Positions 27,822 to 42,449 of a stretch of 64,000 bases of DNA are shown one piece after another. Source of the stretch: Telmatospirillum siberiense (lineage in GTDB: Bacteria; Pseudomonadota; Alphaproteobacteria; Rhodospirillales; Magnetospirillaceae). The notes under the pieces are model-generated. The model saw only the letters and a program-made list of their open reading frames with translations. It did not search any database and had not been told where the DNA came from. Each line of letters begins with the position of its first letter. Positions within the stretch are counted from its first letter, which is position 1. The stretch spans positions 62,001 to 126,000 of the forward strand of contig NZ_PIUM01000010.1 of assembly GCF_002845745.1 (NCBI RefSeq), written 5' to 3'. The position numbers and the translations under genes are program-made.

Positions 27822-28538
27822 ATGGCACCAATTTTTTTCCATGTCGTGAATTGGCAAGCTTGGTCGCCGGAACGGCCGACGGCGGAGGCGTGGCGTCTCT
27901 GGGCTGGAACAGGCTCGGACACGGGCCCGGGTCCGGCCGACGGTTCGGCGCCCGTGCCCATGCTTTTGCGCCGCCGTGTCGGCGCTCTGGGACAGCAGGC
28001 GTTGCGCGCCGCCTGGAGCATGCCGCAATCCGCCTCGGCGAGACTGGTATTCGCCTCTCGCCATGGCGAGTTTCCTCGCACGCTCTCGATTATGGACAGT
28101 CTGGCGGCGGGAGAGCCGGTCTTGCCCGCCGACTTCACTCTTTCGGTTCATCATGCCCTGGCCGGATTGCTTTCCATCGCACGGTCCAACCACCATGGAC
28201 ATACGGCGATCGCCGCCGGCCGCGACAGTTTCGGCTGCGGTCTGCTGGAGGCCGCCGCCTGTCTGGCTGAAAAGCCGGACGAGCCGGTGCTGTTCGTCTA
28301 TTACGACGAACAGCTGCCGTCGCCGTTTTCCGATTTCGACGAGGATGGCGCCCCTCTCGCCGTGGCTCTGACGCTGGCTGCCGGCGGTGGTTCCTCCATC
28401 GGGCTCACCCTCTCGGCGCGTCCGGCCGATATGCCGGTTTCCAGGACGCCGGCCGAGGACTTCCTGCGTTTTCTGTTGGATAGGGCGCCATCGGCGGCAA
28501 GTCCGGGGGAACGCCATCTGTGGCGTTGGACCCGATGA
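27822..28538 (+). CDS. apeC: Aryl polyene chain-length factor (ketosynthase-like, ApeC)
   Basis: A 238-residue ketoacyl-synthase N-terminal-like protein of the chain-length-factor type: IFFHVVNWQAWSPERPTAEAWRLWA is the typical N-terminus, and MLLRRRVGALGQQALRAAW plus FASRHGEFPRTLSIMDSL follow. It has no catalytic Cys-His-His set, as expected for a factor that pairs with an active ketosynthase (ApeO) and sets polyene length. Start 27822 gives the family N-terminus. ATG 27753 (with GTGGGG close upstream) would add 23 low-complexity residues and cannot be excluded. It is first of the cluster and overlaps apeD by 4 bp (ATGA). Ape letters here and below follow the published cluster order as I recall it. 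Confidence 0.87.
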   Translation: MAPIFFHVVNWQAWSPERPTAEAWRLWAGTGSDTGPGPADGSAPVPMLLRRRVGALGQQALRAAWSMPQSASARLVFASRHGEFPRTLSIMDSLAAGEPVLPADFTLSVHHALAGLLSIARSNHHGHTAIAAGRDSFGCGLLEAAACLAEKPDEPVLFVYYDEQLPSPFSDFDEDGAPLAVALTLAAGGGSSIGLTLSARPADMPVSRTPAEDFLRFLLDRAPSAASPGERHLWRWTR

Positions 28539-29299
28539 TGCGCAGGCTCGACTACTCATGGCGGCTGTTCGCCACCGGCAGCGCGTTCGCTTTCATCTTT
28601 TTTGGGGGCGGTTTGCTGGCGGTGACGGTGTTGCCGCTTCTTTCCCTGCTGCCGGGACGGAAGCGCCGGCGCGCGCAAATGATCGTCCACCGCCTGTTCC
28701 GGCATTACATCTGGATGCTGCGGCATCTGGGTCTTTTGACTCTGCAGACCGAGGGGCTCGACAAGTTGGCGGCACCCGGCGGGCGACTGGTGGTGGCCAA
28801 CCACCCTTCGTTGCTCGACGTGGTCATCTTGATGGCCTTCATTCCGAAAGCCCAGTGCATCGTCAAGCATCAACTGTGGGACCATAAACTCCTGGGGCCG
28901 CTGGTGCGCCGCGCCGGCTATATCCGCAACGACCTGGATCCCGAAACCCTGGTGGCCGCCTGCAAGACGGCCCTGGATCAGGGAAACAGCCTGATCATCT
29001 TTCCGGAAGGCACCCGCAGCCTGCCGGGAGTCCCTCCGCAGATGCGCCGCGGTTTCGCCAATCTGGCCACGCTGACGGGGGCGTCCATCCAACTCGTCGT
29101 CATCACCTGCGATCCGCCCACCTTGATCAAGGGCGAGCCGTGGTGGCGCATTCCCCCTCACAAACCCTCGTTCCGCCTCGTCGTTGACGAGGTATTGGAC
29201 GCGAGCACCTATCTCGACCACCAATGCCGCAGTCTGGCGGCGCGGCATCTGGTTCGGTTCGTTGAAACTTACTTCGCAGAAAAGCTTGGATATGTCTGA
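28535..29299 (+). CDS. apeD: Aryl polyene lysophospholipid-type acyltransferase (ApeD)
   Basis: A 254-residue 1-acyl-glycerol-3-phosphate acyltransferase-like protein with one N-terminal membrane segment (SAFAFIFFGGGLLAVTVLPLL). The active-site NHPSLLD (H-x4-D) and substrate-binding FPEGTRS are intact, and GLLTLQTEGLDKL precedes them. In APE pathways it is thought to help move the aryl polyene or a fatty acyl chain onto the membrane anchor. ATG 28535 overlaps the apeC stop. The gene overlaps the first ACP gene by 8 bp, indicating translational coupling. Confidence 0.9.
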   Translation: MMRRLDYSWRLFATGSAFAFIFFGGGLLAVTVLPLLSLLPGRKRRRAQMIVHRLFRHYIWMLRHLGLLTLQTEGLDKLAAPGGRLVVANHPSLLDVVILMAFIPKAQCIVKHQLWDHKLLGPLVRRAGYIRNDLDPETLVAACKTALDQGNSLIIFPEGTRSLPGVPPQMRRGFANLATLTGASIQLVVITCDPPTLIKGEPWWRIPPHKPSFRLVVDEVLDASTYLDHQCRSLAARHLVRFVETYFAEKLGYV

Positions 29300-29555
29300 C
29301 ATCGAATATGAAGTGAAGAAGATGATCATCGAGTCCCTGAAACTCGAAGACATCACGCCCGAGGACATCAACAGCGAGGAACCGTTGTTCGGCGAGGGGC
29401 TGGGGCTCGATTCCATCGATGCCCTGGAACTCGGCGTGGCGATCCGCCAGCGTTTCGGGATCAAGCTGGAAACGGTCAGCGACGAGGTGAGGGCCTATTT
29501 CGCCAATGTGCGCAGCCTGTCCCGCTTCATCGGTCTGCAGCAGGGAGCGCAGTGA
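29292..29555 (+). CDS. apeE: Acyl carrier protein 1 of the aryl polyene pathway (ApeE)
   Basis: An 87-residue acidic ACP. GEGLGLDSIDALELG carries the serine that takes 4'-phosphopantetheine. It begins inside the end of apeD (8-bp overlap) and its TGA overlaps the next ATG by one base. By analogy with characterised APE clusters, one of the two ACPs carries the growing polyene and the other the starter; sequence alone cannot tell which. Confidence 0.93.
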   Translation: MSDIEYEVKKMIIESLKLEDITPEDINSEEPLFGEGLGLDSIDALELGVAIRQRFGIKLETVSDEVRAYFANVRSLSRFIGLQQGAQ

Positions 29556-29818
29556 TGGCTTCCCGCGACGAGCTTTACCAGAAATTGACCGAATATCTGG
29601 TTGAACTCTTTGAAATCGAACCGGGGAAGATCACGCCGGACGCCAAGCTGTTCGAGGAATTGGATCTGGACAGCATCGACGCCGTCGATCTGGTGGTGAA
29701 GTTGCAGGAATATACCGGCCGGCGGGTGAAGCCCGAGGAGTTCAAGGCGGTCCGGACCGTCGGCGACGTGGTCGACTGCCTGGAAAGACTGCTGAAGACG
29801 CATGACCTTCCGGCCTAG
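29555..29818 (+). CDS. apeF: Acyl carrier protein 2 of the aryl polyene pathway (ApeF)
   Basis: An 87-residue ACP with the 4'-phosphopantetheine serine in FEELDLDSIDAVDLVVKL. The ATG at 29555 shares a base with the apeE stop (TGATG) and has GGGAG 9 bases upstream. It differs from apeE enough (VVKLQEYTGRRVKPEEFKAV) to suggest a different partner enzyme. After it the tight coding run is broken by 188 bp containing a dispersed repeat. Confidence 0.93.
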   Translation: MASRDELYQKLTEYLVELFEIEPGKITPDAKLFEELDLDSIDAVDLVVKLQEYTGRRVKPEEFKAVRTVGDVVDCLERLLKTHDLPA

Positions 29819-29864
29819 GGCGTGTCGTCAGTTGCCGGGATATCGTGCTGATGGCCCCAAAAAC

Positions 29865-29962
29865 CGTCATGGCCGTGCTCGACACGGCTATCCACGTGGT
29901 GGGAGCGAACGGCGGAGACTTGTTCGGGGGCGTGGATGCCCGGCTCAAGGCCGGGCATGACG
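29865..29962. repeat. Dispersed palindromic element of about 100 bp, copy 2, inside the aryl polyene operon
   Basis: It starts CGTCATGGCCGTGCTCGACA and ends CAAGGCCGGGCATGACG, the same inverted ends as the copies at 5333 and 53701. It splits apeF from apeG in an otherwise overlapping gene series. A hairpin here could lower transcription of or protect the upstream message. Confidence 0.82.
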
Positions 29963-30006
29963 TCTTTTGATTGAATCGCCAAACCAAAATACCGGAAGAG
30001 CGGTAA

Positions 30007-30579
30007 ATGACGACAGGCCCTAGAAATCCCTGGTTGGTTCTTGCGGTTCTGGGCGGGCTGGCCTATCCCCTGATTGTCTATTCGAGCTTTTCCCGGATAC
30101 CCCCCCTGTTCCTGGTGTGTCTCGGCCTGGGGTTGATCGCCTTGCGGCTGGTCGGCCTGCGCCGTGTCGTCCGTTCCAGGACCTGGACGGCGGCTCTGCT
30201 CACCGCCGCCGCCGGCCTGATCCTTTTGTCCATGGTGGCCCCGGGATTGGCGGCGCGGGCCTATCCGGTCCTGGTCAGCCTGAGCGTGGCCGGCGTCTTC
30301 GCCGTCTCGATGCGCCATCCCCCCACGGTGATCGAGCGCTTCGCCCGGATGACAGAGCCCGATCTGCCGCCCGAGGGTGTGGCCTACACCCGTAAATTGA
30401 CGGTGGTCTGGATCGTTTTCCTGGTTGCCAATGCGGGGATCTCGGCGGCGACCGCTCTTTGTGGGTCGTTGGCCCTCTGGACGCTTTGGAACGGCCTTTT
30501 ATCCTATCTCGCCATGGGCTCGCTGTTCCTGGGCGAGCTGCTGGTCCGGCGGATGGTCAGGGGACGGGCCGGGACATGA
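30007..30579 (+). CDS. apeG: Aryl polyene cluster membrane protein (ApeG, COG4648-like)
   Basis: A 190-residue polytopic protein with about five to six hydrophobic segments (WLVLAVLGGLAYPLIVYSSF, LFLVCLGLGLIALRLVGL, AYPVLVSLSVAGVFAVSM, LTVVWIVFLVANAGISAATA, LSYLAMGSLFLGELLVRRMV). HPPTVIERFARMTEPDLPPEGVAYTRKLT is the characteristic soluble loop. The biochemical role is unknown, but it is a constant part of APE clusters. GGAAGAG lies upstream of the ATG, and its TGA overlaps the apeH start (ATGA). Confidence 0.86.
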   Translation: MTTGPRNPWLVLAVLGGLAYPLIVYSSFSRIPPLFLVCLGLGLIALRLVGLRRVVRSRTWTAALLTAAAGLILLSMVAPGLAARAYPVLVSLSVAGVFAVSMRHPPTVIERFARMTEPDLPPEGVAYTRKLTVVWIVFLVANAGISAATALCGSLALWTLWNGLLSYLAMGSLFLGELLVRRMVRGRAGT

Positions 30580-31889
30580 TCGTCGGTCCGCTGGCAGCCC
30601 TCTTCACCGGCCCCGGTACCGGCTCCCGGCCGGTCGCCTTGCGCGGCGGAAATCCCGTCGATTTCGCCGAGTTCCGCGCGGATGTGGCGAGGGTGGCGCA
30701 TGCCTTTTCCGGCTGTCCCCGGGCCGCTCTGTTCTGCCGGGACAGCTACGTTTTCGCGGTGGGGCTGTTCGGGCTTTTGCATGCCGGCGCCAAAGTCATC
30801 TTGCCGCCCAACGGGCAACCGGGCCTGCTGGCCGCGTTGTCGGATCGCTTCGATCGTCTGATCGGCGACGATCTGCTGGAGCGGGCCGGCGGGGCCGGTG
30901 CCGACCTCGATTCCCTCCCCACCGGGGAACCCCTCCTGCACTTCTTCACGTCCGGTTCCACGGGCGAAGCGAAATGCGTCGTCAAATCCCTGGGCATGAT
31001 GGAGCAGGAACTCCACGTCCTCGAGTCTCTGTGGCCGGCCGGCGACGGCCCGGTCCTGTCCACGGTCAGCCATCAGCATCTCTACGGCCTGACCTTCCGG
31101 ATTTTGTTGCCATTGGCCGTGGGACGTCCGTTCACTGCCGAAACTCACGAATTGTGGGAGACGCTGCTGGCGGTCCTTCCCGCCGGCGCGGTGGTGGTGT
31201 CCAGTCCCGCGCATCTCGGTCGCACGGGCGGTCTCGCGCCGGTGCCGCCGGCTCGCAGGCCGGCCTGCGTCATGTCGGCCGGCGCGCCACTGTCGGCCGT
31301 CGCGGCGCGGCAGTCCGCCGCCATTCTCGGACCTCTGCCGACGGAAATCTTCGGCAGCACGGAAACCGGCGTGATCGCGACGCGCCGGCAGGAAAGGGGG
31401 GACGAGGACTGGTCTTTGTTGCCCGGTGTCGAAATGCGGACCGAGGCCGATGGCCGGCTTTCGCTGAGGGCCCCTCACATGGGGAGCGGTTGGGTGGCGA
31501 CCGGCGATCAGGTCGCCCCCGTTCCCGGCGGCTTTCGTTTTCAGGGACGGATGGATCGGATCGTCAAGATCGAAGGCAAGCGGATCGATCTCAAGGATGT
31601 CGAACAGGCGCTGCTGCGTCTGCCCTGGGTCGCCGCCGCCGCCGTCGCCCTGCTGCCGGGGGATCCGGCGCGTCTGGCCGCCGCGGTCGTTCCCAGCCCG
31701 GCCGGCGCCGAACGCCTGGCTCAGCTGGGATCGTTCCGTTTCGGCCGGCTGCTGCGCCGCGACTTGTCCGATACTCAGGAGCCCGCCGGCATGCCCCGGA
31801 TGTGGCGTTTCGTCCCCGCTTTGCCGGATGCGGATATGGGCAAGCGGCGCCGGGCCGATATCCAGGCCCTGTTCGGAGATCGGGGATGA
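30576..31889 (+). CDS. apeH: Aryl polyene AMP-dependent aryl-ACP ligase (ApeH)
   Basis: A 437-residue member of the acyl-adenylate-forming family, shorter than the usual 500-550. FFTSGSTGEAKCVVKS is the ATP-binding P-loop. TEIFGSTETG is the adenylate motif, VATGDQV the ribose-binding Asp, FQGRMDRIVKIEGKRI the hinge, and MGKRRRADI carries the catalytic C-terminal lysine. It should activate the aryl starter (4-hydroxybenzoate-type acid) and load it on an ACP. The ATG at 30576 overlaps the apeG stop by 4 bp, and its stop overlaps apeI in the same way. Confidence 0.9.
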   Translation: MIVGPLAALFTGPGTGSRPVALRGGNPVDFAEFRADVARVAHAFSGCPRAALFCRDSYVFAVGLFGLLHAGAKVILPPNGQPGLLAALSDRFDRLIGDDLLERAGGAGADLDSLPTGEPLLHFFTSGSTGEAKCVVKSLGMMEQELHVLESLWPAGDGPVLSTVSHQHLYGLTFRILLPLAVGRPFTAETHELWETLLAVLPAGAVVVSSPAHLGRTGGLAPVPPARRPACVMSAGAPLSAVAARQSAAILGPLPTEIFGSTETGVIATRRQERGDEDWSLLPGVEMRTEADGRLSLRAPHMGSGWVATGDQVAPVPGGFRFQGRMDRIVKIEGKRIDLKDVEQALLRLPWVAAAAVALLPGDPARLAAAVVPSPAGAERLAQLGSFRFGRLLRRDLSDTQEPAGMPRMWRFVPALPDADMGKRRRADIQALFGDRG

Positions 31890-32224
31890 CCATTCCGGAC
31901 ATCGTCTCGTGTCAGCGCCCCGATGAGAGCTCGGTCGTTCTCGCCTTTCGGCTGTCCGCCGGGGCGGCCGCGTTCGACGGGCATTTCCCCGGCCACCCCA
32001 TCCTGCCCGGCGTGCTTCAGCTCGATTGGGCGCTTCGCCTGGCCGAACGGTATTTCGGTTTGGAGCCGGCGGTGGGCCGGGACTTTCAGATAAAGTTCCG
32101 TCATGCGATCCTGCCCGAGGCGGATGTGATCTTGTCGCTTCGCCTGGATGCCGGTCGCCGCCTGGACCTGGAATACCGTGTCGGCGAGGTGGTCGCCTCG
32201 ACGGGCCGGGTGCGTTTGGGATGA
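31886..32224 (+). CDS. apeI: 3-hydroxyacyl-ACP dehydratase, hotdog fold (ApeI)
   Basis: A 112-residue FabA/FabZ-like protein. FDGHFPGHPILPGVLQLDWALRLA contains the active-site His in the HFPGHPILPG motif. Dehydration gives the conjugated double bonds of the polyene. In characterised clusters ApeI works in complex with a second dehydratase, ApeP, which is also present (41256). A long frame upstream on the same strand is a shadow of apeH; the ATG at 31886 overlaps the apeH TGA. Confidence 0.9.
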   Translation: MTIPDIVSCQRPDESSVVLAFRLSAGAAAFDGHFPGHPILPGVLQLDWALRLAERYFGLEPAVGRDFQIKFRHAILPEADVILSLRLDAGRRLDLEYRVGEVVASTGRVRLG

Positions 32225-32228
32225 GACG

Positions 32229-32978
32229 ATGAAAATTTGCGCCGTCGTTCCCAGCCACAATCATTGGACCGCCCTCGCCGGCGTGATCGGGGGTCTTCGG
32301 TCCGCCGGCCTGCCGGTTTTCATCGTCGATGACGGCAGCGCGGAGCCGGCGCGGAGCGCCATCGCCCGCCTGCACGCGCCGGAAGACGGGGTGCGCGTTC
32401 ATCGCCTGGCGGTCAACCGGGGCAAGGGCGTGGCGGTGGTCGAGGCCTTTCGGCTGGCCTGGGAGGCGGGATTCACCCATGCGCTTCAGATCGATGCCGA
32501 CGGTCAGCATGATCTGGACGCCGTGCCCGGCCTGCTGGCCCTGGCCGGACGGCATCCCCAGGCCCTGGTGACCGGCCTGCCGCGGTACGACGCGTCGATT
32601 CCCCCGGGACGCAGGATCGGGCGCTGGGTTACCCATGTCTGGGTCTGGGTCGAGACGCTTTCCTTGCGGATTTCCGACAGCATGTGCGGTTTCCGCGTCT
32701 ATCCGCTGGCGGCCGTGCATGCCTTGCTCGGGCGCCATAAGGTGGGCCGCCGCATGGACTTCGACACCGAAATCATGGTTCGGCTGTTCTGGGAGGGAAC
32801 GCCGGTTCTGGGCCTGCCGGTGCGGGTGACCTATCCGCCCGGCAATATTTCGAATTTCGATCTGCTGCGCGATAATTGGCGGATCAGCGTGATGCACAGC
32901 CGGCTGGTGCTGACCATGCTGATCCGCCTGCCCTCCATCCTGGCCCACCGTCCGCAATTTCCCGAAGAGGTATCATGA
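32229..32978 (+). CDS. apeJ: Family 2 glycosyltransferase (single-domain ApeJ)
   Basis: A 249-residue GT-A protein: MKICAVVPSHNHWTAL, FIVDDGSAEP, NRGKGVAVVEAF and IDADGQHDLDAVP (D-x-D metal site) form the nucleotide-sugar domain. FRVYPLAAV and RMDFDTEIMVRLFWEG follow, as in dolichol-phosphate-mannose-like enzymes. It may add a sugar to the lipid anchor of the polyene. As I recall, apeJ homologues in other clusters are often fused to an LpxL-like acyltransferase; here the protein ends after the glycosyltransferase, and such a domain is instead at the C-terminus of the exporter at 33990. Its stop overlaps apeK by 4 bp. Confidence 0.87.
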   Translation: MKICAVVPSHNHWTALAGVIGGLRSAGLPVFIVDDGSAEPARSAIARLHAPEDGVRVHRLAVNRGKGVAVVEAFRLAWEAGFTHALQIDADGQHDLDAVPGLLALAGRHPQALVTGLPRYDASIPPGRRIGRWVTHVWVWVETLSLRISDSMCGFRVYPLAAVHALLGRHKVGRRMDFDTEIMVRLFWEGTPVLGLPVRVTYPPGNISNFDLLRDNWRISVMHSRLVLTMLIRLPSILAHRPQFPEEVS

Positions 32979-33379
32979 TTTCCGCCGAAGTGGTGATTAA
33001 GGCCCAGTTTTACGATCTCGATCCCATGCAGGTCGTCTGGCATGGCAATTACGCCCGTTTCCTGGAACAGGCCCGCTGCGCCCTTCTCGACCGTATCGGC
33101 TACAATTACCCGGAAATGGAGGCCAGCGGCTATGTCTGGCCGGTCGTCGACATGCGGATCAAATATGTCCGGCCGATCCGCTTCAACGACGAGGTGGTGG
33201 TCACCGCGACCCTGGTGGAGTACGAAAACCGCCTGAAGATCGATTACCGCATCCACGATGCCACCGGCCAGATCGCGACCAAGGGGCAGACCATCCAGGT
33301 GGCGGTCCGCGCCGATACCGGCGAGATGTTGCTGGAAAGTCCGCCGGCGTTTACCGAAAAAGTGAAGGCGGCCCTCTGA
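32975..33379 (+). CDS. apeK: Acyl-CoA/ACP thioesterase, 4HBT hotdog family (ApeK)
   Basis: A 134-residue thioesterase. YDLDPMQVVWHGNYARFLEQAR is the 4-hydroxybenzoyl-CoA thioesterase signature with the catalytic Asp, and KYVRPIRFNDEVVVTATL is the second conserved strand. In APE pathways it probably removes stalled or wrong acyl groups, or releases product from ACP. The ATG at 32975 overlaps the apeJ TGA, and its own TGA overlaps the apeL ATG by one base. Confidence 0.9.
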   Translation: MISAEVVIKAQFYDLDPMQVVWHGNYARFLEQARCALLDRIGYNYPEMEASGYVWPVVDMRIKYVRPIRFNDEVVVTATLVEYENRLKIDYRIHDATGQIATKGQTIQVAVRADTGEMLLESPPAFTEKVKAAL

Positions 33380-33993
33380 TGCGCCGCTTGCTCGTCCTTC
33401 TGCTGATCGTCCTGGCACCCTTGTCCCCGGCATGGTCCGCCGGCCCCAGCCAGACCATGGAACCCGGGCAGGTCTTGCGGGGGCGTTTCGTGCAGGAACG
33501 TCATCTCAGCGGATTCGGCGCGCCTTTGCGGACCGAGGGGCGTTTCGTCCTGGTGCCGGGGCGCGGATTGATCTGGCAGGCCGAGACGCCCTTCGCCGTG
33601 ACCACCGTCATCACCGCGGCGGGTCTGGTTCAGACGGCCGGCGGCACGGAGACCATGCGGCTTCCGTCGGCCCGCTTGCCGTTCCTGTCGCGTCTCTATG
33701 ATATGCTGGGCGGTGTTCTCGGCGGCGATTGGCGGGCGATGGAGAGCGATTTCGCCACGACCCGTTCCGGTGACGACGGAAACTGGCGGATGGAGCTGGT
33801 CCCGCGCCGGGCGCCCGACCAAGTCTCCATGCCCTTCCGGTCCATCGTCGCCAAGGGCGGGCGTTTCCTGGACGAGGTGGTTCTCGCCAAGGCCGACAGC
33901 GAAGACTTCGATCGCCTGAGTTTCCTTGACCAGAGTCTGTCGCGCGATTCGCTGACGGGCGCCGAGGCGAGCCTGCTCGACTCTTCGCGATGA
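33379..33993 (+). CDS. apeL: LolA-like periplasmic lipid carrier (ApeL)
   Basis: A 204-residue protein with a signal peptide (LLVLLLIVLAPLSPAWSAG) followed by an open-barrel LolA-type domain: GQVLRGRFVQERHLSGFGAPLRTEGRFVLV and GLIWQAETPFAVTTVITAAG match the lipoprotein-carrier fold. It presumably ferries the hydrophobic polyene-lipid across the periplasm from the exporter to the outer membrane. It is coupled on both sides (TGATG with apeK, ATGA with apeM). Confidence 0.89.
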   Translation: MRRLLVLLLIVLAPLSPAWSAGPSQTMEPGQVLRGRFVQERHLSGFGAPLRTEGRFVLVPGRGLIWQAETPFAVTTVITAAGLVQTAGGTETMRLPSARLPFLSRLYDMLGGVLGGDWRAMESDFATTRSGDDGNWRMELVPRRAPDQVSMPFRSIVAKGGRFLDEVVLAKADSEDFDRLSFLDQSLSRDSLTGAEASLLDSSR

Positions 33994-36900
33994 GCCGGCT
34001 GTTCGCTCTCGCCTGGCTGGCCGTGGTGCTGCTGGCCGGTGCCCACCTGGTCTGGAGAGCCGCCGAGGGTCTGCATTTTCAGACCGATCTGACGGCGCTT
34101 CTGCCGCGCGAGGAGCGGGATCCCGCCTTGCAGCGGGCCAACGACGTGGTGACCAACGGCCTGGCGAAACATGTTGTCCTGCTGTTCGGCGCCGACGATC
34201 GGGAGAAGGCGCGGGCGGCGGCGGCCGACATCGCCGGGCGTCTTGCCGCCGAGGGGCTGGTGAGCGTGGCGACCGGCGGACTGGACAAGAACCGCCTGCA
34301 GTCCCTGGGGCGCCTTTACTTTCCCTATCGCCGCGGATTGTTGAGCGAGGACGACCGGCGCCGTCTGCTGGACGGGCGGGCCGGCGATATCGCCAATCGG
34401 GCGCTGTCGCAGATCTATGGTTTCGTCGGGATGGCCGACGCGCGATTGCTGCGGCAGGATCCCTTCCTGCTGATGCCGGCTTTTTTCTCCAGCCTGCCCA
34501 TACCGATGTCGCGCCTTGCCGTCGACGACGGCATGATGTCGCTCCAGCAGGACGGCATGACCTGGGTGATGGTGGCCGGACAGCTGAACGGCGGACCTTA
34601 CGCCCTTGATGTCCAGCGGCGCCTTGCCGCCCTTCTCGATGAGGGTTCCCTGCGGGCGGCTCGTCCGGGCGTCGAACTGTTGCGTCTGGGGGCGGTGTTC
34701 TATGCCCGGGCCGGTGCCGAGCAGGCGATGTCCGAGACCTCCGAGATCGGTCTCCTGTCCACCCTGGGCACCATTTTGCTGGTGTTGCTGGTCTTCCGCG
34801 CCTTGTCGGCGCTCTGGCTCAGTCTTCTGGTCATCGGAACCGGGGTGATGACGGCTTTGTCGGCCAGCCTGTGGCTGTTCGGCGAATTGCATGTGGGGGC
34901 CCTGCTGTTCGGGGTCAGCCTGATCGGCGTGGCGGTCGACTACAGCTTGCAATATTGCACGGAGATTTTCGGCGCTCCGGCGTCGCCGGCACTACGGCTG
35001 CGCCGGGTGCGGGCCGGCGTCACCCTGGGCGCGGCGACCACCGTGATCGGCTATCTGACCTTGTTTTTCGCCCCGTTCCCCGGACTGCACCAGATCGCCA
35101 TCTTCTCGGCGGTGGGCCTCGTGGCGGCATGGGCGACGGTGATCCTGTGGCTGCCGCTTCTCGATCGCAGCGCCGTTCCCCGGCATGGGCGCCGGTTGCT
35201 GGCATTCGGCGCCGGACTGGCCTCCCTGTGGGAGGATCGGCGCTATCGACGTCCCCGCCGGGCCGCGGCGATTCTTCTCGGGGTGGCCGCTCTGGCCGGC
35301 GTGCCGCGATTCCATGTCGATGACGACGTGCGGCATATGCAGGCCCTGTCGCCGGACCTGCGCGTCCAGCAGGAGCATATTCTGCGTCTGATCGGCGACA
35401 CCGCGGGCAGCCGTTTCTTCGTGATCGAAGCCGCCGACGAGGAGGGCGCCCTCGAGAGGGAGGAGGCCCTGGCCGATGCGTTGCGTCCGCTGGTGGCCGA
35501 CGGCGCCTTGCGCAATTTCCAGGCGCTGGCCCGCTATGTTCCCTCCGCCGCGCGGCAGCGGGACAATCGCCGTCTGCTGCGCCGCCTCCTCGAGGAGCCG
35601 TTGCTGGAGGGACATCTTCGCCAGCTTCAGCTGGAATTGCCGCCGATGCCCACGGCGGATCAGGACGAGGCCGGGCCGGCGCTGACGCCGTCGCAGGTCC
35701 TTTCCGGCGACGGCCCCCTGGCCTCCCTGGCGATGCTGGACATGGGACGGGTCAATGGCGTGGTGACCCATGTGGTGACCCTGGAAGGGGTGGCGGACGT
35801 CGAGCGCGTGGCGCGCGCGGCCGGCGGTCTCGAGGATGTGCGGTTCGTCGATCCGACGGAAAGCTTCACCCTCCTTCTCGGCAAATATCGGTACCGGGCG
35901 TTGCTTCTGACCGGTCTCTCGGCGGTTTTGATGGTGCCCCTCGTCATGGGGCGCCATGGCGTGGGAGGGTTGCGTCTGCTGGTGCCACCACTTCTGGCGG
36001 TGATTCTGACGCCGGCGCTCAGGGCTTTGGGGGGCGCCGCCTTCACTTTTTTCGACGCCATGGCCCTGGTTCTGGTGCTGTCGGTCGGGGTGGATTATGC
36101 GGTCTTCTGCGCCGAGAGCCGGGGTGAGCGCCGCCAGGTCACGCTTCTGGCCGTCGCCCTGGCCGCCTGTACGGCCTTGATGTCCTTCGGTATGCTGGCT
36201 TTGAGCGGCGTCGCCGCCGTGCACGCCTTCGGTTCGACCATGAGCCTCGGCATTCTGTTGGCTTTTATCCTGGCTCCGATGGCGTGGGCGGACGAACCGG
36301 GCGGCCCGGCCGACGGTCACTGGGCGCGATTGGCCGAGCGGGGGACGTGGCTCGGGATGCGTCTGATCCTTCTGCTTTACAGGATCGCTGGGCGGCGCGG
36401 ATGCGTGTTCCTGTTGTGGCTGATCGTTCCCTACTTCTATCTCACCGACGGCCGGCGGCGGCGGCACTCGCTCGACTTTCTGGGCCGCGTTCGCGCGTTT
36501 CGAGGGGAAAAGCCTCCCGGATGGCGGGATGGCCTCATCCATTTCATGTCATTCGCCGAAAAGGCGCTCGACACGGTCATCGCCTGGTCCGCGCCCCAGC
36601 GAACCGGAGCCATCCGTATGGTGGGCGCGGAGGCCATCCGGCAAGTTGCCGCCGAGGGCCGGGGCGGCCTGCTCATCGTGTCTCATCTCGGCAATGCCGA
36701 CATGTGCCGGGCCCATCAGGCCAAGCTGTTCGGGCGGCCGCTCAACGTCCTTCTCCATACCCGTCATGCCGTTCACTACAACCGGATCCTGCGGGCCATT
36801 CATCCGGACGTGGAGGCACGGACGATCCAGGTCACCGAAATCGGTCCCGAAACGGCGATCGACCTCAAGGAGCGGGTGGAACGGGGCGAATGGATCGCCA

Positions 36901-37220
36901 TCGCGGGAGACCGGATTCCCGTTCTCAGCCGGACGCGGATCAGCCGGGTCTCCTTTCTGGGGCATCCCGCAGCCTTCTCCCAGGGGCCGTTTATTCTGGG
37001 GGCCTTGATGGATTGCCCGGTCCATCTGATGTTTTGTCTGCGCGAGGGTGCGGGCTTTTCCATGTATTTCGAGACGTTTGCGGAAAGAAGGTTGGAAATA
37101 CAGCGAAAATCGAGAGAGCAGATTCTGGGGGATATGTGCCAGTCATATGCTCATATCCTTGAGAGGTATTGTCTCAAGGCGCCAAGTCAGTGGTACAATT
37201 TTTTTGATTTTTGGGCCTGA
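33990..37220 (+). CDS. apeM: MMPL/RND exporter fused to an LpxL-like acyltransferase (ApeM fusion)
   Basis: A 1076-residue fusion. Residues 1-770 form an MMPL-type RND exporter: an N-terminal helix, TDLTALLPREE, and two hexa-helix groups (LLFGVSLIGVAVDYSLQYC and LVLVLSVGVDYAVFCAESR carry the GxxxDY motif of proton-driven family members). After a short linker (WADEPGGPADG, near 36290), residues about 790-1076 are an LpxL/HtrB-like acyltransferase (COG4261-like) with the H-x4-D motif VSHLGNADM and GDRIPVLSRTRIS. I read through the junction and see no frameshift or stop. A permease joined to a lipid acyltransferase would couple export to acylation of the anchor. The last gene of the coupled series, it ends 9 bp from a convergent beta-lactamase-fold gene. 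Confidence 0.88.
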   Translation: MSRLFALAWLAVVLLAGAHLVWRAAEGLHFQTDLTALLPREERDPALQRANDVVTNGLAKHVVLLFGADDREKARAAAADIAGRLAAEGLVSVATGGLDKNRLQSLGRLYFPYRRGLLSEDDRRRLLDGRAGDIANRALSQIYGFVGMADARLLRQDPFLLMPAFFSSLPIPMSRLAVDDGMMSLQQDGMTWVMVAGQLNGGPYALDVQRRLAALLDEGSLRAARPGVELLRLGAVFYARAGAEQAMSETSEIGLLSTLGTILLVLLVFRALSALWLSLLVIGTGVMTALSASLWLFGELHVGALLFGVSLIGVAVDYSLQYCTEIFGAPASPALRLRRVRAGVTLGAATTVIGYLTLFFAPFPGLHQIAIFSAVGLVAAWATVILWLPLLDRSAVPRHGRRLLAFGAGLASLWEDRRYRRPRRAAAILLGVAALAGVPRFHVDDDVRHMQALSPDLRVQQEHILRLIGDTAGSRFFVIEAADEEGALEREEALADALRPLVADGALRNFQALARYVPSAARQRDNRRLLRRLLEEPLLEGHLRQLQLELPPMPTADQDEAGPALTPSQVLSGDGPLASLAMLDMGRVNGVVTHVVTLEGVADVERVARAAGGLEDVRFVDPTESFTLLLGKYRYRALLLTGLSAVLMVPLVMGRHGVGGLRLLVPPLLAVILTPALRALGGAAFTFFDAMALVLVLSVGVDYAVFCAESRGERRQVTLLAVALAACTALMSFGMLALSGVAAVHAFGSTMSLGILLAFILAPMAWADEPGGPADGHWARLAERGTWLGMRLILLLYRIAGRRGCVFLLWLIVPYFYLTDGRRRRHSLDFLGRVRAFRGEKPPGWRDGLIHFMSFAEKALDTVIAWSAPQRTGAIRMVGAEAIRQVAAEGRGGLLIVSHLGNADMCRAHQAKLFGRPLNVLLHTRHAVHYNRILRAIHPDVEARTIQVTEIGPETAIDLKERVERGEWIAIAGDRIPVLSRTRISRVSFLGHPAAFSQGPFILGALMDCPVHLMFCLREGAGFSMYFETFAERRLEIQRKSREQILGDMCQSYAHILERYCLKAPSQWYNFFDFWA

Positions 37221-37228
37221 TTTTTTAT

Positions 37229-38419
37229 TTATTCAGACTGGATTTTTGGGGGCGTTGCCAAAAGCAGCATCAGTTTGTGGCCGAGGCTGTAATCCCAGTT
37301 GAAGGCGTTTTGCAGAACGACCACGGCGGTGCCGTTGGTCTCGTTGACGGCGAGATAGCTGGTGTAACCGGCGATCAGGCCGACCTGGTAGAGGATGCGG
37401 GTATCGCCCACGTCGTCCGCAATCCAGGCGATGGCCGCCGCTTCGCGCGGCCGAGCGAAGCGGATCCGCAAATTTCCAGCCAGCGCGCTGCTCAAGGGAG
37501 AGCCATCCTTTCTGACATGGGCTCCGGCGAAGTTCAGAAGATCGCGGGCGGTGGAATAAATCGCCGCCGATCCGCGCATGATGCCGGTCATCCGCCAATC
37601 GGGGACGGGCTCGCCTCGCCGGATGAACTTCGGCTGATCTCCGGCATGCCCGATGGCCCGCGAGGCATATCCCGGCAGTTTTTCGGGGTCGTAGCCGGTA
37701 TGGGGCAGGCCCAGCGGCCCCGTGATGCGTTGGGCCAGCAGTTCGTCGAGCGTCTGGCCCGTTCTCCGTTCGACGACGTCGCCCAGGATGCCGTAGCCGA
37801 TATTCGAATATTGCGGGTTCGGATCGGACGGCGCGGAAAAGTCCGAGAGATAGTCCAGGACGGTGTCGCGGTCGAGATGGCGGTAGAAATTGTCGCCGGT
37901 GAACAGATATTCGACGAAGTAGGCCAGCGTCCTGAGGGTGGCGGGCTGACGCGGCAGGCCCGAGGTGTGGGTGGCGAGCTGCTCCAGGGAAATCCGGGCG
38001 GCATCGGAACTGAGCGGCGTTCCCGGCGGCAGGAGCGCCGGCAGGGTGTCGGACCAGGACAGCCGCTTCTCCTGCACCAGCGTCGCCGTGATTCCGCCCA
38101 GAAAACCCTTGCTGAGGGATCCGACGGCGAACAGGGTGTCCGGGCCGGGTGTTTCGCCTCCGCCGGATGTGGTACTGCCATAACCGAAAAACCGGCAGGA
38201 CCCATCGGGTAGCAGAAGACCGACGATCAAGCCGGGTGTCTGGCCCTGACGGGTCAAAGGGCCGGCGAGGGACTCCACTTCCTGCGGAAGGTTTGAGAGA
38301 TCGGGTTCGATCCGCTCTTTCGGCGGCTCCGCCTCCCAGGTCGACAAGGTGCCACAGGCGTTCAGTGTCAGCGAAATGACGATCGCCGCGATGAACGATC
38401 TCAATAATTCACGTTTCAT
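37229..38419 (-). CDS. Beta-lactamase-fold serine hydrolase lipoprotein
   Basis: A 396-residue protein with a lipoprotein signal (FIAAIVISLTLNAC, Cys22). Class C/esterase-type motifs: S-x-x-K in VGSLSKGF (Ser101, Lys104), Y-x-N in YSNIGYG (about residue 203), and a VGLIAGYTS C-terminal segment in place of KTG. Members include D-aminopeptidases, esterases and AmpC-like enzymes. It may be a membrane-anchored peptidase or esterase that acts on the polyene lipid or cell wall. It lies on the opposite strand, between apeM and apeN, so it is transcribed separately from the cluster; the two 3' ends are 9 bp apart. Confidence 0.9.
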   Translation of the reverse strand: MKRELLRSFIAAIVISLTLNACGTLSTWEAEPPKERIEPDLSNLPQEVESLAGPLTRQGQTPGLIVGLLLPDGSCRFFGYGSTTSGGGETPGPDTLFAVGSLSKGFLGGITATLVQEKRLSWSDTLPALLPPGTPLSSDAARISLEQLATHTSGLPRQPATLRTLAYFVEYLFTGDNFYRHLDRDTVLDYLSDFSAPSDPNPQYSNIGYGILGDVVERRTGQTLDELLAQRITGPLGLPHTGYDPEKLPGYASRAIGHAGDQPKFIRRGEPVPDWRMTGIMRGSAAIYSTARDLLNFAGAHVRKDGSPLSSALAGNLRIRFARPREAAAIAWIADDVGDTRILYQVGLIAGYTSYLAVNETNGTAVVVLQNAFNWDYSLGHKLMLLLATPPKIQSE

Positions 38420-38610
38420 GGTTTCGCTTGTGGTCTGGAAATTTTAAAACCGGTAATAGAGAAGATGTCTTTTCGCATGAAAGCGGGAAATCTCAAACCG
38501 TAGTTTCCGGGGTCCGAGATTTTCTGCCGGAGGAGTCTCTCGAATACTTTTTCATCGCTCGAATTCGTGTATTGTCCGGTCACGTTATTCCAAAATGAAG
38601 GGGTGTTGAG

Positions 38611-39195
38611 TTGAGTATTCGAGCGATCATTGGCGCCGCGCTCATGTCAATCCTGGCTGCTTGCGCCAGCGAGCCGGCGCCCGTGGCGCCGGTCAAGGTC
38701 GCGCCCGATCTGTCGCTGACCTTGCCTCGGCTCAACGATCTGGGCCGGCGCGTCGAGGCAAGCCAGATGCTCATTGCCCATTATGGCGAGCAGTCCTACC
38801 CCTTCGAAGGGCGCCTGAGTGCCACGCCCGAGCGTTTCCTCATGGTCGGACTGGATCCGATGGGCCGTGAACTGTTGCGCATCACCTGGACACCCGGCGG
38901 CGTCGAATATTCTGCCGCTCCCTGGGTGCCGAACTCCATGCGGCCGGAAAATATCCTGGTGGATATCGTTTTGCTTTACTGGCCCGAAGACGTCGTTCGC
39001 GCGATGTTGGTAAGAGCGGGGGCAACCCTGGAGAGCGGCCCCCGCAGCCGGTCGATCCTGGCCGGAGGACGGGAAGTCATGCGAGCCGATTATCAACCGG
39101 TCTCGGGAGACTCTCCTTGGACAGGGCGGTTGCATTACAGCAATCTCGCCTGGGGATACTCGCTGGATATTCAGACGGTCGAGACGCGCCCCTGA
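38611..39195 (+). CDS. apeN: DUF3261 lipoprotein of the aryl polyene cluster (ApeN)
   Basis: A 194-residue lipoprotein with an LAAC lipobox (Cys18), followed by PRLNDLGRRVEASQMLIAHYGEQSYPFEGRL and FLMVGLDPMGRELLRITWTPGGVEY, as in DUF3261. Such lipoproteins accompany APE exporters and probably act at the outer membrane with ApeL, like LolB with LolA. The start is TTG at 38611, with AAGGGG about 8 bases upstream; the next in-frame ATG would destroy the signal peptide. A 191-bp spacer to the divergent hydrolase gene holds its own promoter, so the cluster has at least two transcription units on this strand. Confidence 0.82.
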   Translation: MSIRAIIGAALMSILAACASEPAPVAPVKVAPDLSLTLPRLNDLGRRVEASQMLIAHYGEQSYPFEGRLSATPERFLMVGLDPMGRELLRITWTPGGVEYSAAPWVPNSMRPENILVDIVLLYWPEDVVRAMLVRAGATLESGPRSRSILAGGREVMRADYQPVSGDSPWTGRLHYSNLAWGYSLDIQTVETRP

Positions 39196-39213
39196 GCGCG
39201 GCGTCATCTGAAT

Positions 39214-39253
39214 CTTAAGGGCTGGAGCGATTGTTTCGCGGCAAGCCCTTAAG
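39214..39253. repeat. Dispersed hairpin repeat overlapping a stop codon, copy 2
   Basis: CTTAAGGGCT and AGCCCTTAAG are perfect 10-bp arms around a loop that contains a second short stem (GCGA-TCGC). The element lies between the convergent apeN and lipoprotein genes, whose TAA (39249-39251) is inside the right arm. It matches 5544-5586, which holds the recQ stop in the same way. It could serve as a bidirectional terminator. Confidence 0.85.
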
Positions 39254-39659
39254 AAAGGGCCAGCCTGATGATCTGGCGGTCGATGTCGGACTCGAACTGG
39301 TGAATCCATTTGTTATAGGTGGTGTGAATCAGCCCATCGCTCGTCGCCAGAAGATTGGCGCTGGTTACATAGCTGATGGAATAATTGCCGGTGGTGAACA
39401 GGACTTCGATGTCGGCGCTGTGCCCATTGTGATCGATATGTCCTTTCAGATGTCCGGGCTCCACGGGGACAAGGGTCCAGCCCCGATCCGTTCCGGCCAG
39501 AACGATCGCCCTCTGCATGTCGGGCAGGGAGATCTGCGTGACGGCCGCGGGAATGGGATGGCTGACGACGTTGTAGACCGGTTGCTGGCGGGAGCAGCCC
39601 ACCACGACCAAGGCCAAGCCGCCGGCAACGATGATGTTCCTCGCCATCTTTAAAATCAT
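39249..39659 (-). CDS. Small lipoprotein of unknown function
   Basis: A 136-residue protein with a lipoprotein signal (NIIVAGGLALVVVGC) and a compact domain: YNVVSHPIPAAVTQISLPDMQRAIVLAGTDRGWTLV, then GHIDHNGHSADIEVLFTTGNYSISYVTSANL and HTTYNKWIHQFESDIDRQII. I do not recognise a named family. The fold may bind a small ligand in the periplasm. ATG 39659 is chosen because GGGAG lies 8 bases upstream; a TTG two codons earlier is less likely. It is on the strand opposite to the aryl polyene genes, between apeN and apeO. Confidence 0.75.
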   Translation of the reverse strand: MILKMARNIIVAGGLALVVVGCSRQQPVYNVVSHPIPAAVTQISLPDMQRAIVLAGTDRGWTLVPVEPGHLKGHIDHNGHSADIEVLFTTGNYSISYVTSANLLATSDGLIHTTYNKWIHQFESDIDRQIIRLALS

Positions 39660-40071
39660 TCTCAATACTCCCTGCGAGACAAGGGGGGCTCATCCCCTAC
39701 CAGAAGAAATAAAAGCCTGTGGATTATCCACGGAAAAGGTATGCCAATCTTTAACGGGGTCGCCCATAAAGAAATCGTATGTTTTTCAATAATCGTCCTT
39801 TGGGGCGACCGCGCGCGGAACATTGGGCGCACCTTCAACCAGCCCTCGGCTGACCGCCGGTGACGCGGTACGCGCAAGGGTTATCTGGTTACTTTCCGGT
39901 AGGGCTTTTTGGTGTATTGTCCGCCGGCATCTTGGATCGAAAGGTTGGGTATTTGGTCGTCCGCGCGGTGGTTTCTGTTGTCTTCCCGTCGGCGAGGGCC
40001 GTTTGCGGCGGCGCCGCGACGGCTTCCGATGCGTCGGCCGGATTCGATGTTCCGGCGGTGAGGGTGTGGCC
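39660..40071. promoter_or_regulatory. Intergenic region upstream of apeO
   Basis: These 412 bp separate the small lipoprotein from apeO. The first 150 bp are relatively AT-rich; the rest is GC-rich. In-frame codons before the apeO ATG do not look like ketosynthase sequence. This spacer must contain the promoter of the apeO-apeP-apeQ-apeR run, but no clear box could be fixed by eye. Confidence 0.4.
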
Positions 40072-41256
40072 ATGAGGCTTTACCTGAACGATTGCGGCGT
40101 CGTCTGTCCCTTGGGCCGGGGTCGGTCCGCCGTTGCCCGGGCCTTGTTCTCCGGGGCGTCCCATGCCTTTCGCGAAGACGCGGTCTCGATTCCGGAGCGG
40201 AGCGTCCAGGTTGGCGCGATCGACGGAGAGTTTCCGCCACCGCCTCCGGTCGCGGCGGCCTATGACTGCCGCAACAACCGGATGATGTGGGCGGCGCTGG
40301 CCGAGATCCGTCCGGCGGTGGAGGCCTGCGCCGCCCGTTACGGCGTCCACAGGATAGCGGTGGTGTTGGGCAGCAGCACCTCGGGCATCGCCGAGGGCGA
40401 GATTGCTCTGTCCGCCTACCGGAGTGGCGGCGTATGGCCCGGAAGCTACCATTACCGGCAGCAGGAACCCGGTACCCTGGCCGTTTTCGCCGCGCGCGCC
40501 CTGGGACTGGAGGGGCCTGCCTATACGGTGGCCACCGCCTGCTCGTCGAGCGGCAAGGTTTTCGCCTCCGCCCGCCGGTTGATCCGGTCCGGGCTGGTCG
40601 ACGCCGCCGTGGTGGGCGGGGCGGATTCGCTCTGCCGGATGACCTTGAACGGCTTCCATTCGTTGGAGGCGCTGTCAAAAAGCCGTTGCAATCCCTTCAG
40701 CGCCCATCGCGACGGCATCACCATCGGGGAGGGGGCCGCCGCTTTTCTGCTTTCCGCCGAGCCCGGTCCGGTGGAGTTGCTGGGGGTGGGCGAAAGTTCG
40801 GATGCCCATCACGTCACCGCGCCCGATCCCGAAGGCGAAGGCGCGCGGGCGGCCATGGCGATGGCGCTGTCCGACGCCGGCCTGACTCCCGCCGACATCG
40901 CCTATGTCAATCTGCACGGCACGGCGACACCGCTCAACGACGCCATGGAGAGCCGCGCCATGGCGGCGCTGTTCCCGGCGTCGACGCCCTGCAGTTCGAC
41001 CAAGGGCATGACCGGACATATGCTGGGGGCGACCGGCGGCGTCGAGGCCGCGTTCCTATGGCTTACCCTCAATCCGGAAACCAATGCCGGATTGCTGCCG
41101 CCCCATCTGTGGGACGGCTGCTTCGACGACGCCTTGCCCCGGCTCAATCTGATCGCTCCGGGCACTCCGCTGGTTGAACGGGGGCGCTCGGCCATGCTCA
41201 GCAATTCCTTCGGGTTCGGCGGCAGCAACGTTTCCCTGGTTCTGGGGCGGGCCTGA
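40072..41256 (+). CDS. apeO: Beta-ketoacyl-ACP synthase (ApeO)
   Basis: A 394-residue condensing enzyme with a complete Cys-His-His triad: TACSSSG (active-site Cys), VNLHGTATPLNDAMES and STKGMTGHMLGATGGVEA. The glycine-rich C-terminus SNSFGFGGSNVSLVLGR is normal. By cluster position it corresponds to ApeO, the active partner of the chain-length factor ApeC in the polyene ketosynthase heterodimer. ATG 40072 follows GTGTGGCC and begins the family N-terminus (MRLYLNDCGVVCPLG). Its TGA shares a base with the next ATG, the start of a tightly coupled run of four genes. Confidence 0.91.
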   Translation: MRLYLNDCGVVCPLGRGRSAVARALFSGASHAFREDAVSIPERSVQVGAIDGEFPPPPPVAAAYDCRNNRMMWAALAEIRPAVEACAARYGVHRIAVVLGSSTSGIAEGEIALSAYRSGGVWPGSYHYRQQEPGTLAVFAARALGLEGPAYTVATACSSSGKVFASARRLIRSGLVDAAVVGGADSLCRMTLNGFHSLEALSKSRCNPFSAHRDGITIGEGAAAFLLSAEPGPVELLGVGESSDAHHVTAPDPEGEGARAAMAMALSDAGLTPADIAYVNLHGTATPLNDAMESRAMAALFPASTPCSSTKGMTGHMLGATGGVEAAFLWLTLNPETNAGLLPPHLWDGCFDDALPRLNLIAPGTPLVERGRSAMLSNSFGFGGSNVSLVLGRA

Positions 41257-41717
41257 TGGGCGGCGCCTTTCCTTCGCCCGGCGATCTCCTACCGCACCGT
41301 CCGCCGATGGTGTTGCTGGACGAGGTGCTGGACTATGGCGAGGCCATGGCGAAGGCATCCCTGACCATTCATGCCGGGACAGCGTTTTTCGAGCCCGATC
41401 TGGGCGTGCCCGCCCATGTCGGCATCGAATGGATGGCCCAGACCTGCGGCATTTTCGCCGGCCTGGAGGCCAGGGCCGCCGACCGTCCGATCCGCTTGGG
41501 CTTTCTGCTTGGCACCCGACGTTACCAGTCGATGCGCTCCTGGTTCGCCTTGGGGGAACGGCCGGTGATTTCCGTCGATCTGGCGTTTCGCGAAGAGGGG
41601 ATGGCGGTTTTCGACTGCCGGATCGCGGTTGCCGATGCTCCCGTCGCCACCGCGCGGTTGACCCTCTATCAACCCGATGGCGAAGCGCCATCGACATCCG
41701 ACCAATCCATGGAGTAG
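41256..41717 (+). CDS. apeP: 3-hydroxyacyl-ACP dehydratase-like hotdog protein (ApeP)
   Basis: A 153-residue hotdog protein: LLPHRPPMVLLDEVLDYGEAMAKASLTI is the FabZ-like N-terminal block with the His of the active site. VPAHVGIEWMAQTCGIFAGLEAR is the central helix, with Glu where FabZ also has Glu. It pairs in other clusters with ApeI to form the polyene dehydratase. It starts at TGATG with apeO. The gap to apeQ is 6 bp. Confidence 0.88.
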   Translation: MGGAFPSPGDLLPHRPPMVLLDEVLDYGEAMAKASLTIHAGTAFFEPDLGVPAHVGIEWMAQTCGIFAGLEARAADRPIRLGFLLGTRRYQSMRSWFALGERPVISVDLAFREEGMAVFDCRIAVADAPVATARLTLYQPDGEAPSTSDQSME

Positions 41718-41723
41718 CGGGTT

Positions 41724-42449
41724 TTGGACAGAACGATCCTGGTCACCGGCGCCAGCAAGGGTATCGGTCGCGCCGTCGCCTTGAGACTGGCCCGCGATGG
41801 TTTTCATGTCGCGGTTCACTACGGTTCCGATCAAGCGGGGGCCGAAGCCGTGGCCGCCGCAATCCGCGAGGCCGGCGGCACCGCCCGCATCTTGTCCTTC
41901 GATATCGCCGATCGTGCCGCCTGCCGCGCGGTTCTCGAAGACGAGATCGCGCGACATGGCGCTTTCTACGGTGCGGTATTGAACGCCGGCATCACCCGCG
42001 ACGCGGCTTTTCCCGCCATGGAGGGCGAGGATTGGGATCGCGTGTTGGGGACCAATCTCGACGGTTTTTATAATGTCTTGCACCCCGTCGTCATGCCGAT
42101 GGTGTCGGCGCGGCGCGGCGGTCGCATCGTCAGCCTGTCCTCCGTTTCGGGATTGGCCGGAAATCGCGGACAGGTGAATTACAGCGCCTCGAAGGCCGGC
42201 ATCATCGGTGCCACCAAGGCCCTGGCCATCGAACTGGCCAAGCGCGCCATCACCGTCAATTGCGTGGCGCCCGGCATCATCGAAACTCAAATGATCAAGG
42301 ATCTGCCGCTCGATGAAATCGCCAGGATGGTGCCGCTGCGCCGGGTCGGCCAACCCGAGGAGGTGGCCGCGGCGGTGGCCTTCCTGTGTTCCGACGAGGC
42401 GGGATACATCACGCGGCAGGTGATCTCGGTGAATGGAGGGATGATCTGA
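41724..42449 (+). CDS. apeQ: 3-oxoacyl-ACP reductase (ApeQ, FabG-like SDR)
   Basis: A 241-residue short-chain dehydrogenase. TGASKGIGRA binds NADPH, LNAGITRD is the NAG motif, SLSSVSGLAGNRGQVNYSASKAG provides the catalytic Ser, Tyr and Lys, and the C-terminus is typical of FabG (YITRQVISVNGGMI). It reduces the beta-keto group after each condensation. The start is TTG at 41724 (LDRTILVTGASKG), since no in-frame ATG precedes the glycine-rich motif. Its stop shares a base with the apeR ATG. Confidence 0.92.
   Translation: MDRTILVTGASKGIGRAVALRLARDGFHVAVHYGSDQAGAEAVAAAIREAGGTARILSFDIADRAACRAVLEDEIARHGAFYGAVLNAGITRDAAFPAMEGEDWDRVLGTNLDGFYNVLHPVVMPMVSARRGGRIVSLSSVSGLAGNRGQVNYSASKAGIIGATKALAIELAKRAITVNCVAPGIIETQMIKDLPLDEIARMVPLRRVGQPEEVAAAVAFLCSDEAGYITRQVISVNGGMI

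Follow-up and report, generated by a model that had tools for sequence, protein, structure and literature searches.

An ApeM-like exporter joined in frame to an LpxL-like acyltransferase in a predicted aryl polyene lipid cluster of Telmatospirillum siberiense

The aryl polyene lipid, to whose chemical structure a 2020 bioRxiv preprint is devoted, is reportedly a galactosamine-phosphoglycerol that bears both the polyene and a fatty acid. The closest described system for comparison is the aryl polyene (ape) cluster of Escherichia coli CFT073, for which the published gene table (PMC8253772) lists ApeJ as a glycosyltransferase/acyltransferase, ApeM as an RND family transporter, and ApeN as LolB-like, with ApeM being the proposed exporter. 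According to the same article, deletions of apeD and apeJ in E. coli leave partial pigment and lead to the appearance of late intermediates, and thus, a part in attachment is ascribed to the two acyltransferases, even though the article also calls the anchor unknown (PMC8253772). Here, we analyzed 64,000 nucleotides of Telmatospirillum siberiense (contig NZ_PIUM01000010.1, positions 62,001 to 126,000 of the forward strand; hereafter referred to as the window), in which a predicted ape cluster has the same kinds of genes in the same H-I-J-K-L-M-N order as that of E. coli CFT073, except that the acyltransferase half resides on ApeM, while ApeJ is a glycosyltransferase only. An initial annotation of this DNA took the fusion of exporter and acyltransferase as a hint at the unknown step that anchors aryl polyenes. 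This agrees with the wording of the E. coli article, but given that ApeD and ApeJ are already assigned to attachment there and that a preprint has been devoted to the structure, the lipid anchor is less unknown than had been held.

We propose, with a probability of roughly 0.62, that the fused protein combines the functions of ApeM and an acyltransferase within an aryl polyene lipid cluster, such that a late acylation is tethered to the exporter. In simple terms, the relocated domain probably attaches a fatty tail to a yellow pigment lipid with a protective role, and the pump it now sits on is the presumed exporter of this lipid.

The fused gene and its two domains

The fused gene is a single ATG-to-TGA frame at positions 33990-37220 of the forward strand without an internal stop, and in its 1076-residue product, an exporter of the RND/MMPL fold (residues 1-765) is connected through a short flexible linker to an LpxL-like acyltransferase (residues 777-1076). 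The initial annotation had described just such a frame, with an H-x4-D motif in the acyltransferase and a junction near 36290. Both statements are correct, as the motif is present (H899-x4-D904) and residue 766 begins at 36285. In an AlphaFold2 model of the whole protein (45 aligned rows), which has a mean predicted local distance difference test score (pLDDT) of 91.9 and a predicted template modeling score (pTM) of 0.73, two well-formed parts are joined by a disordered linker: the last exporter helix ends at residue 765, residues 769-782 have a pLDDT <50, and the acyltransferase helices begin at residue 786. When the acyltransferase half was modeled alone without an alignment, the mean pLDDT was 39, which is too low to be of use. 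The GC content of the acyltransferase half is lower than that of the exporter half (61% vs. 68%). Third-position GC drops to 0.52 in the final 50 codons of the gene (37068-37217), as against 0.72-0.84 for the remaining acyltransferase blocks and 0.82 for the exporter half.

The exporter half resembles the ApeM-type exporters of other genomes and groups in trees with the exporters of ape-type clusters. The Pfam MMPL domain had no match at E ≤0.01 in this protein or in the four other fused proteins described below, and therefore the exporter label is based upon orthologues and the predicted fold. Scores to the NCBIfam models for HpnN (TIGR03480; 63.8 bits vs. a cutoff of 751.85) and HAE3 (28.7 bits) were also far below their cutoffs. 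Among the 50 of 464 Foldseek matches listed for the predicted fold, the best solved structures were those of HpnN (6wu0 at E 1.2e-16, along with 5khn and 5khs), followed by MmpL4 and MmpL5, with MmpL3 being lower (E 1e-14 to 1e-10 for the three MmpL proteins). The two DY pairs of the membrane core, which we take to be of the kind that serves as the proton relay in MmpL3, are retained in 27 of 27 (D317-Y318) and 26 of 27 (D702-Y703) aligned exporter rows.

The acyltransferase half is matched by the Pfam family PF03279 (Lip_A_acyltrans) over residues 866-1071 at 24.1 bits, which exceeds the gathering cutoff of 22.3. Three of the other four fused proteins are likewise above this cutoff (29, 29.1, and 25 bits), and the fourth, from locus L237, is below it (17.8 bits). 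The score to the NCBIfam lauroyl acyltransferase equivalog was 29.9 bits (cutoff of 273), and profile matches were obtained to a lipid A acyltransferase chain (5kn7, E 4.6e-5) as well as a phosphatidylinositol mannoside acyltransferase (5oce, E 0.005). The catalytic motif, in the form H-x4-D/E, is conserved in each of the 23 acyltransferases aligned and in all five fused proteins. At E ≤0.001, the only match to the fused acyltransferase in the genome of the window is the fused copy itself. PF03279 has two further members in this genome (214 and 173 bits), which are presumably lipid A enzymes.

Occurrence and conservation of the fusion

The fusion is real and rare, yet it extends past one genus. 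We used five domain profiles to map 66 loci (the window plus 65 fetched regions, which were hand-picked from match lists rather than chosen at random) and found the acyltransferase in one frame with a family 2 glycosyltransferase (GT2) at 41 of them, alone at 23, and fused to the exporter at only two, the window and L060. It should be noted that one of the 41 pieces (L086) is without an exporter and that two of the stand-alone loci (L071 and L090) end at contig ends, which makes their layout provisional. Thus, the initial annotation was right that the acyltransferase is elsewhere either separate or part of the glycosyltransferase, and the prospect it had raised against itself, namely that the fusion might be common in the family, is not borne out at 2 of 66 mapped loci. 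A scan of genome contigs with an acyltransferase alignment confirmed at least 527 of 592 stretches, and the 80 retained comprised 57 with GT2 and acyltransferase, 21 with the acyltransferase alone, and two fusions. One of the latter (L125) is the same contig as L060, while the other (L131) is from an uncultured Acetobacteraceae bacterium. We also searched whole genomes, where a fusion was counted as a single full-protein match across both halves without stops. It was present in 2 of the 60 genomes with a match in the order (317 searched), 1 of 29 in the class (385 searched), and, among the matches listed, 1 of 88 in the phylum (398 searched), with the window itself being the lone case in both the class and the phylum. 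For relatives of the genome of L131, the figure was 3 of 12 (195 searched), as compared to 1 of 8 for relatives of G1182 (147 searched) and 1 of 2 for the order of G1066 (220 searched). These search sets overlap, and there are five distinct fused genomes: G000 (the window), G002 (L060), G1059 (L131), G1066 (L237), and G1182 (L236). A literature search of titles and the starts of abstracts, which was made without bioRxiv and most subscription journals, gave no paper on an exporter-acyltransferase fusion among those listed.

Several other candidates were considered and rejected. Of 35 plasmid records with a match, 20 of which were listed, three had ≥80% query coverage at one place, but these are not fusions because each consists of two pieces spread over 4.2-4.3 kb, whereas the query is 3.2 kb. 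The genome G515 appeared to hold a distant full-length fusion, but the match (residues 28-1075) contained two stops and corresponds to two separate genes. At this locus (L059:2912-7680), the acyltransferase is in the frame of the exporter with the two stops between; its genome is 1.5 Mb in size and belongs to the class of the window. A far larger ape fusion was seen on a 4.35 Mb single contig at L063:4540-12837 (G155:C1:404000-420000). Here, an 1832-residue frame comprises an AMP-ligase, ApeI, GT2, acyltransferase, aromatic amino acid lyase, and thioesterase, while LolA and the exporter are united in the frame that follows (898 aa).

The four other fused proteins are 53-74% identical to that of the window, and all five align end to end, with a linker of ~10-13 residues at one place. 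In the comparison of the window with L060, which is the closest pair, identity is 76% for the exporter and 68% for the acyltransferase, while the ratio of nonsynonymous to synonymous substitution rates (dN/dS) is 0.235 and 0.212, respectively. These ratios suggest that purifying selection acts on each of the two halves. Across the 10 pairs of the five proteins, dN/dS ranges from 0.21 to 0.60, with the larger values and the distant pairs being rough due to high proportions of synonymous differences (pS 0.37-0.67). At least two of the five fused genomes are binned, as judged from the titles of L125 and L131, and the genome of L060 is listed at 8% contamination, both of which would be compatible with a chimeric assembly or a missed stop at the junction. 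A hidden stop or frameshift at the junction had also been named by the initial annotation as what could overturn it, but none exists in the frame of the window, and the junction is in frame at the same place in the four other genomes as well. Furthermore, the completeness and contamination listed for the assembly of the window are 100% and 0.19%, respectively, and the structural model is confident through both halves. We therefore rejected a junction artifact, to which the unbroken frame, the recurrence in five genomes, and the dN/dS of both halves leave next to no probability.

The surrounding cluster and the history of the two halves

The ape cluster spans ~27.7 to 43.7 kb of the window (Table 1). 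Our inventory of its genes covered ApeC to ApeR. All members of the biosynthetic set (Pfam ApeI-like, ApeP-like, ketoacyl-synt, adh_short, PP-binding, and AMP-binding) were found within 27732-43672, as were those of the export set (LolA-like, RND exporter, and DUF3261), and the locus is accordingly a predicted aryl polyene lipid cluster. The glycosyltransferase, thioesterase, LolA-like, and fused genes are consecutive, with overlaps of one to four bases. The glycosyltransferase matches the GT2 profile at 390 bits and its gene ends ~8 residues past the domain, while no acyltransferase was detected in its frame (32130-32975) by domain profile, so it does not have the two domains of ApeJ. With ApeJ being a glycosyltransferase without an acyltransferase and the domain being present on ApeM, the C-terminal half of ApeJ has been relocated within the pathway, and no enzyme has been added, a point that the initial annotation had missed. 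The glycosyltransferase is similarly without an acyltransferase in all five fused genomes. An ape gene set like that of the window surrounds L236, and parts of it are present in the pieces L131 and L237, in both of which apeN begins within the last bases of the fused frame, so that the two overlap. In the window, a gene on the reverse strand (37229-38419) between the fused gene and apeN encodes a serine hydrolase of the beta-lactamase fold (PF00144, E 5.4e-45).

Table 1. Features of the predicted ape cluster, in window positions
Feature	Position	Strand	Evidence or remark
ApeC-like ketosynthase/chain-length factor	27732-28538	+	PF13723, E 2.5e-52
ApeD-like PlsC-type acyltransferase, the second such enzyme in the cluster	28520-29299	+	PF01553, E 6.4e-17
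Two acyl carrier proteins	29304-29555, 29552-29818	+	PF00550, E 2.1e-9 and 2.4e-13
ApeG-like membrane protein	30007-30579	+	Name based on position, which homologues share in other ape clusters; no Pfam match
ApeH AMP-ligase	30576-31889	+	PF00501, E 5.6e-12
ApeI dehydratase	31886-32224	+	PF22818, E 6.4e-10
Family 2 glycosyltransferase (N-terminal half of ApeJ, standing alone)	32229-32978	+	PF00535, E 4e-12
ApeK-like thioesterase	32975-33379	+	PF13279, E 2.7e-14
ApeL, LolA-like carrier	33379-33993	+	PF19574, E 1.2e-9; stop codon overlaps the fused-gene start
Fused gene, ApeM-like RND/MMPL exporter half	33990-36284	+	Residues 1-765; D317-Y318 and D702-Y703 pairs in the membrane core
Fused gene, linker	36285-36317	+	Residues 766-776; directly before the conserved H-W that opens ApeJ-type acyltransferases
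Fused gene, LpxL-like acyltransferase half	36318-37217	+	Residues 777-1076; H899-x4-D904; C-terminal half of ApeJ elsewhere
ApeN, DUF3261	38611-39195	+	PF11659, E 1.4e-26
ApeO ketosynthase, ApeP dehydratase, ApeQ ketoreductase, ApeR ketosynthase	39823-43672	+	Pfam: ApeO PF02801, E 1.9e-26; ApeP PF22817, E 4e-16; ApeQ PF13561, E 3.1e-56; ApeR PF00109, E 1.1e-35

The exporter and acyltransferase trees disagree, which suggests that the two halves differ in their history. For the exporter, the tree unites the fused proteins in one group (support 100/99) with the unfused exporters of L061, which is from the same genus as the window, and L062, which is from the same family (62 and 65% identity, respectively). 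In the acyltransferase tree, the fused proteins instead group with Azospirillum, Bosea, L238, and L239 (support 100/98), whereas those of L061 and L062 fall among the standard ApeJ acyltransferases. Throughout the fused branch, the domain is away from its usual place in every cluster with a mapped layout. Two Azospirillum loci (L244 and L246) and one from Bosea (L245) have the whole GT2-acyltransferase gene past apeR on the opposite strand; L238 and L239 have the glycosyltransferase alone in the operon, with the acyltransferase encoded by a separate gene on the opposite strand at the other end; and the window, L060, L131, L236, and L237 have the acyltransferase on ApeM. L238 and L239 may resemble the state expected prior to fusion. 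Such discordant trees, together with the lower GC content of the acyltransferase half, would fit with a swap of the ApeJ acyltransferase by horizontal transfer for an Azospirillum/Bosea-type domain having another acyl donor or acceptor, of which the fusion was a by-product. However, the catalytic motifs and the surrounding cluster are the same, and a single ancient fusion with subsequent loss in L061 and L062 was not rejected by the approximately unbiased (AU) test using five fused rows (p 0.22 for the acyltransferase and 0.42 for the exporter); when only three fused rows had been included, the result was borderline (p 0.062 and 0.041, respectively). No acyltransferase remnant was detected behind the exporter gene of L061 or L062 by tblastn at E ≤1. 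Overall, we consider such a replacement unlikely, although it can hold together with a late acylation tethered to the exporter.

Proposed role of the tethered acyltransferase

The reading we prefer, in which the fused protein tethers a late acylation to the exporter, is supported by the in-frame fusion at one place in five genomes, purifying selection, the ape surroundings, and the glycosyltransferase without its acyltransferase, and further by the conserved motifs of both halves, the two well-formed parts of the model, the E. coli deletion mutants, and the precedents at MmpL pumps. In this scheme, the stand-alone glycosyltransferase would make the sugar head group and ApeD would add one acyl chain. 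The LpxL-like domain, being joined in frame to the ApeM C-terminus on the cytosolic side, would add a late acyl chain (polyene or fatty acid) from an acyl carrier protein at the inner leaflet. The adjoining exporter would then take up the finished glycolipid and drive it to the periplasmic side, where the LolA-like ApeL and ApeN would carry it to the outer membrane. The domains, the frame, its recurrence, the selection on it, the loss of the second half of ApeJ, and the flexible linker are established, whereas the substrates, the order of the two acylations, and the direct hand-over to the pump are what we infer, and it is reasonable to suppose that acylation and export occur at the same site, as the initial annotation had held. 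The tether is sound in its topology, as LpxL-type acyltransferases use acyl carrier protein donors at the cytosolic side of the membrane and RND exporters have their C-terminus in the cytosol. Both features argue against acylation in the periplasm, as does the fact that Chp2, a mycobacterial enzyme acting there, belongs to another family. Even though MmpL-linked periplasmic acyl transfer is known (PMC4183827), we consider it highly improbable that the fused acyltransferase acts after export in the manner of Chp2.

It is also conceivable that the acyltransferase was joined to ApeM by chance and works just as it does in ApeJ, thereby gaining co-expression and membrane placement only, with no hand-over. 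In favor of this, the linker is short and disordered in the model, fused, separate, and GT2-borne acyltransferases all occur in ape clusters, and clusters of the same family persist without the fusion. However, the five genomes with the fusion are widely diverged and each half of the protein is under purifying selection, and we regard a purely neutral tether as possible but rather doubtful. Other points weigh directly against the coupled reading. With a pTM of 0.73 and a disordered linker, how the acyltransferase is oriented relative to the pump cannot be read reliably from the model. An in-frame internal ATG at 36357 (residue 790) could yield some free acyltransferase, albeit one that would lose the conserved H-W...E-R-G beginning of the domain. 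The related exporters of L061 and L062 are without the fusion, which indicates that the tether is dispensable for cluster persistence, and since the fused domain is on a different branch from L061 and L062, it may have another acyl preference.

As the acyltransferase is found on either the glycosyltransferase or the exporter, it is simplest to suppose that the three sit side by side, with this acylation being last before export. As a tentative extension, the ApeJ acyltransferase could be a mobile module of a glycosyltransferase-acyltransferase-exporter membrane complex, held by either partner, such that the fused form would acylate the glycolipid with acyl-carrier-bound polyene beside the exporter entry and make synthesis and flipping one channeled reaction. 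A pump-bound acyltransferase whose usual partner is without it implies that the glycosyltransferase, acyltransferase, and exporter steps are probably co-located, and the relocation suggests that the acyltransferase step is the last cytosolic one. A rare natural rearrangement in a few alphaproteobacteria points to the making and exporting of a lipid at one spot. The fused protein offers structural biology a ready single chain, and it allows the coupling of lipid synthesis to export, which is also in question for the mycobacterial MmpL pumps, to be tested in a simple way.

Comparison with known exporters and acyltransferases

The exporter half shares the RND fold and the core DY pairs with HpnN and MmpL3/4/5, but none of the 50 of 464 fold matches listed is described with an acyltransferase. 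With LpxM/LpxL and PatA (PF03279), the acyltransferase half shares a Pfam score above the cutoff, the H-x4-D/E motif, and the profile match to 5kn7, but it is far below the NCBIfam equivalog cutoffs and is part of a transporter. A lipid enzyme or carrier that is found at an MmpL pump or depends upon one has precedents, as AcpM is bound to MmpL5 in the cytoplasm (PMC11633376) and MmpL10 is required for Chp2 activity (PMC4183827). Unlike the fused protein, however, both of these pairs consist of separate proteins and serve other lipids. Among ape-type clusters, the gene order of the window is approached by L059, in which the glycosyltransferase is alone and the acyltransferase gene directly follows that of the exporter, but these are two genes (the exporter ends at 6720 and the acyltransferase starts at 6781) and the cluster is very distant (24% acyltransferase identity). 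Both halves of the fused protein therefore belong to known families within a known pathway, and it is their arrangement that is a rare new variant.

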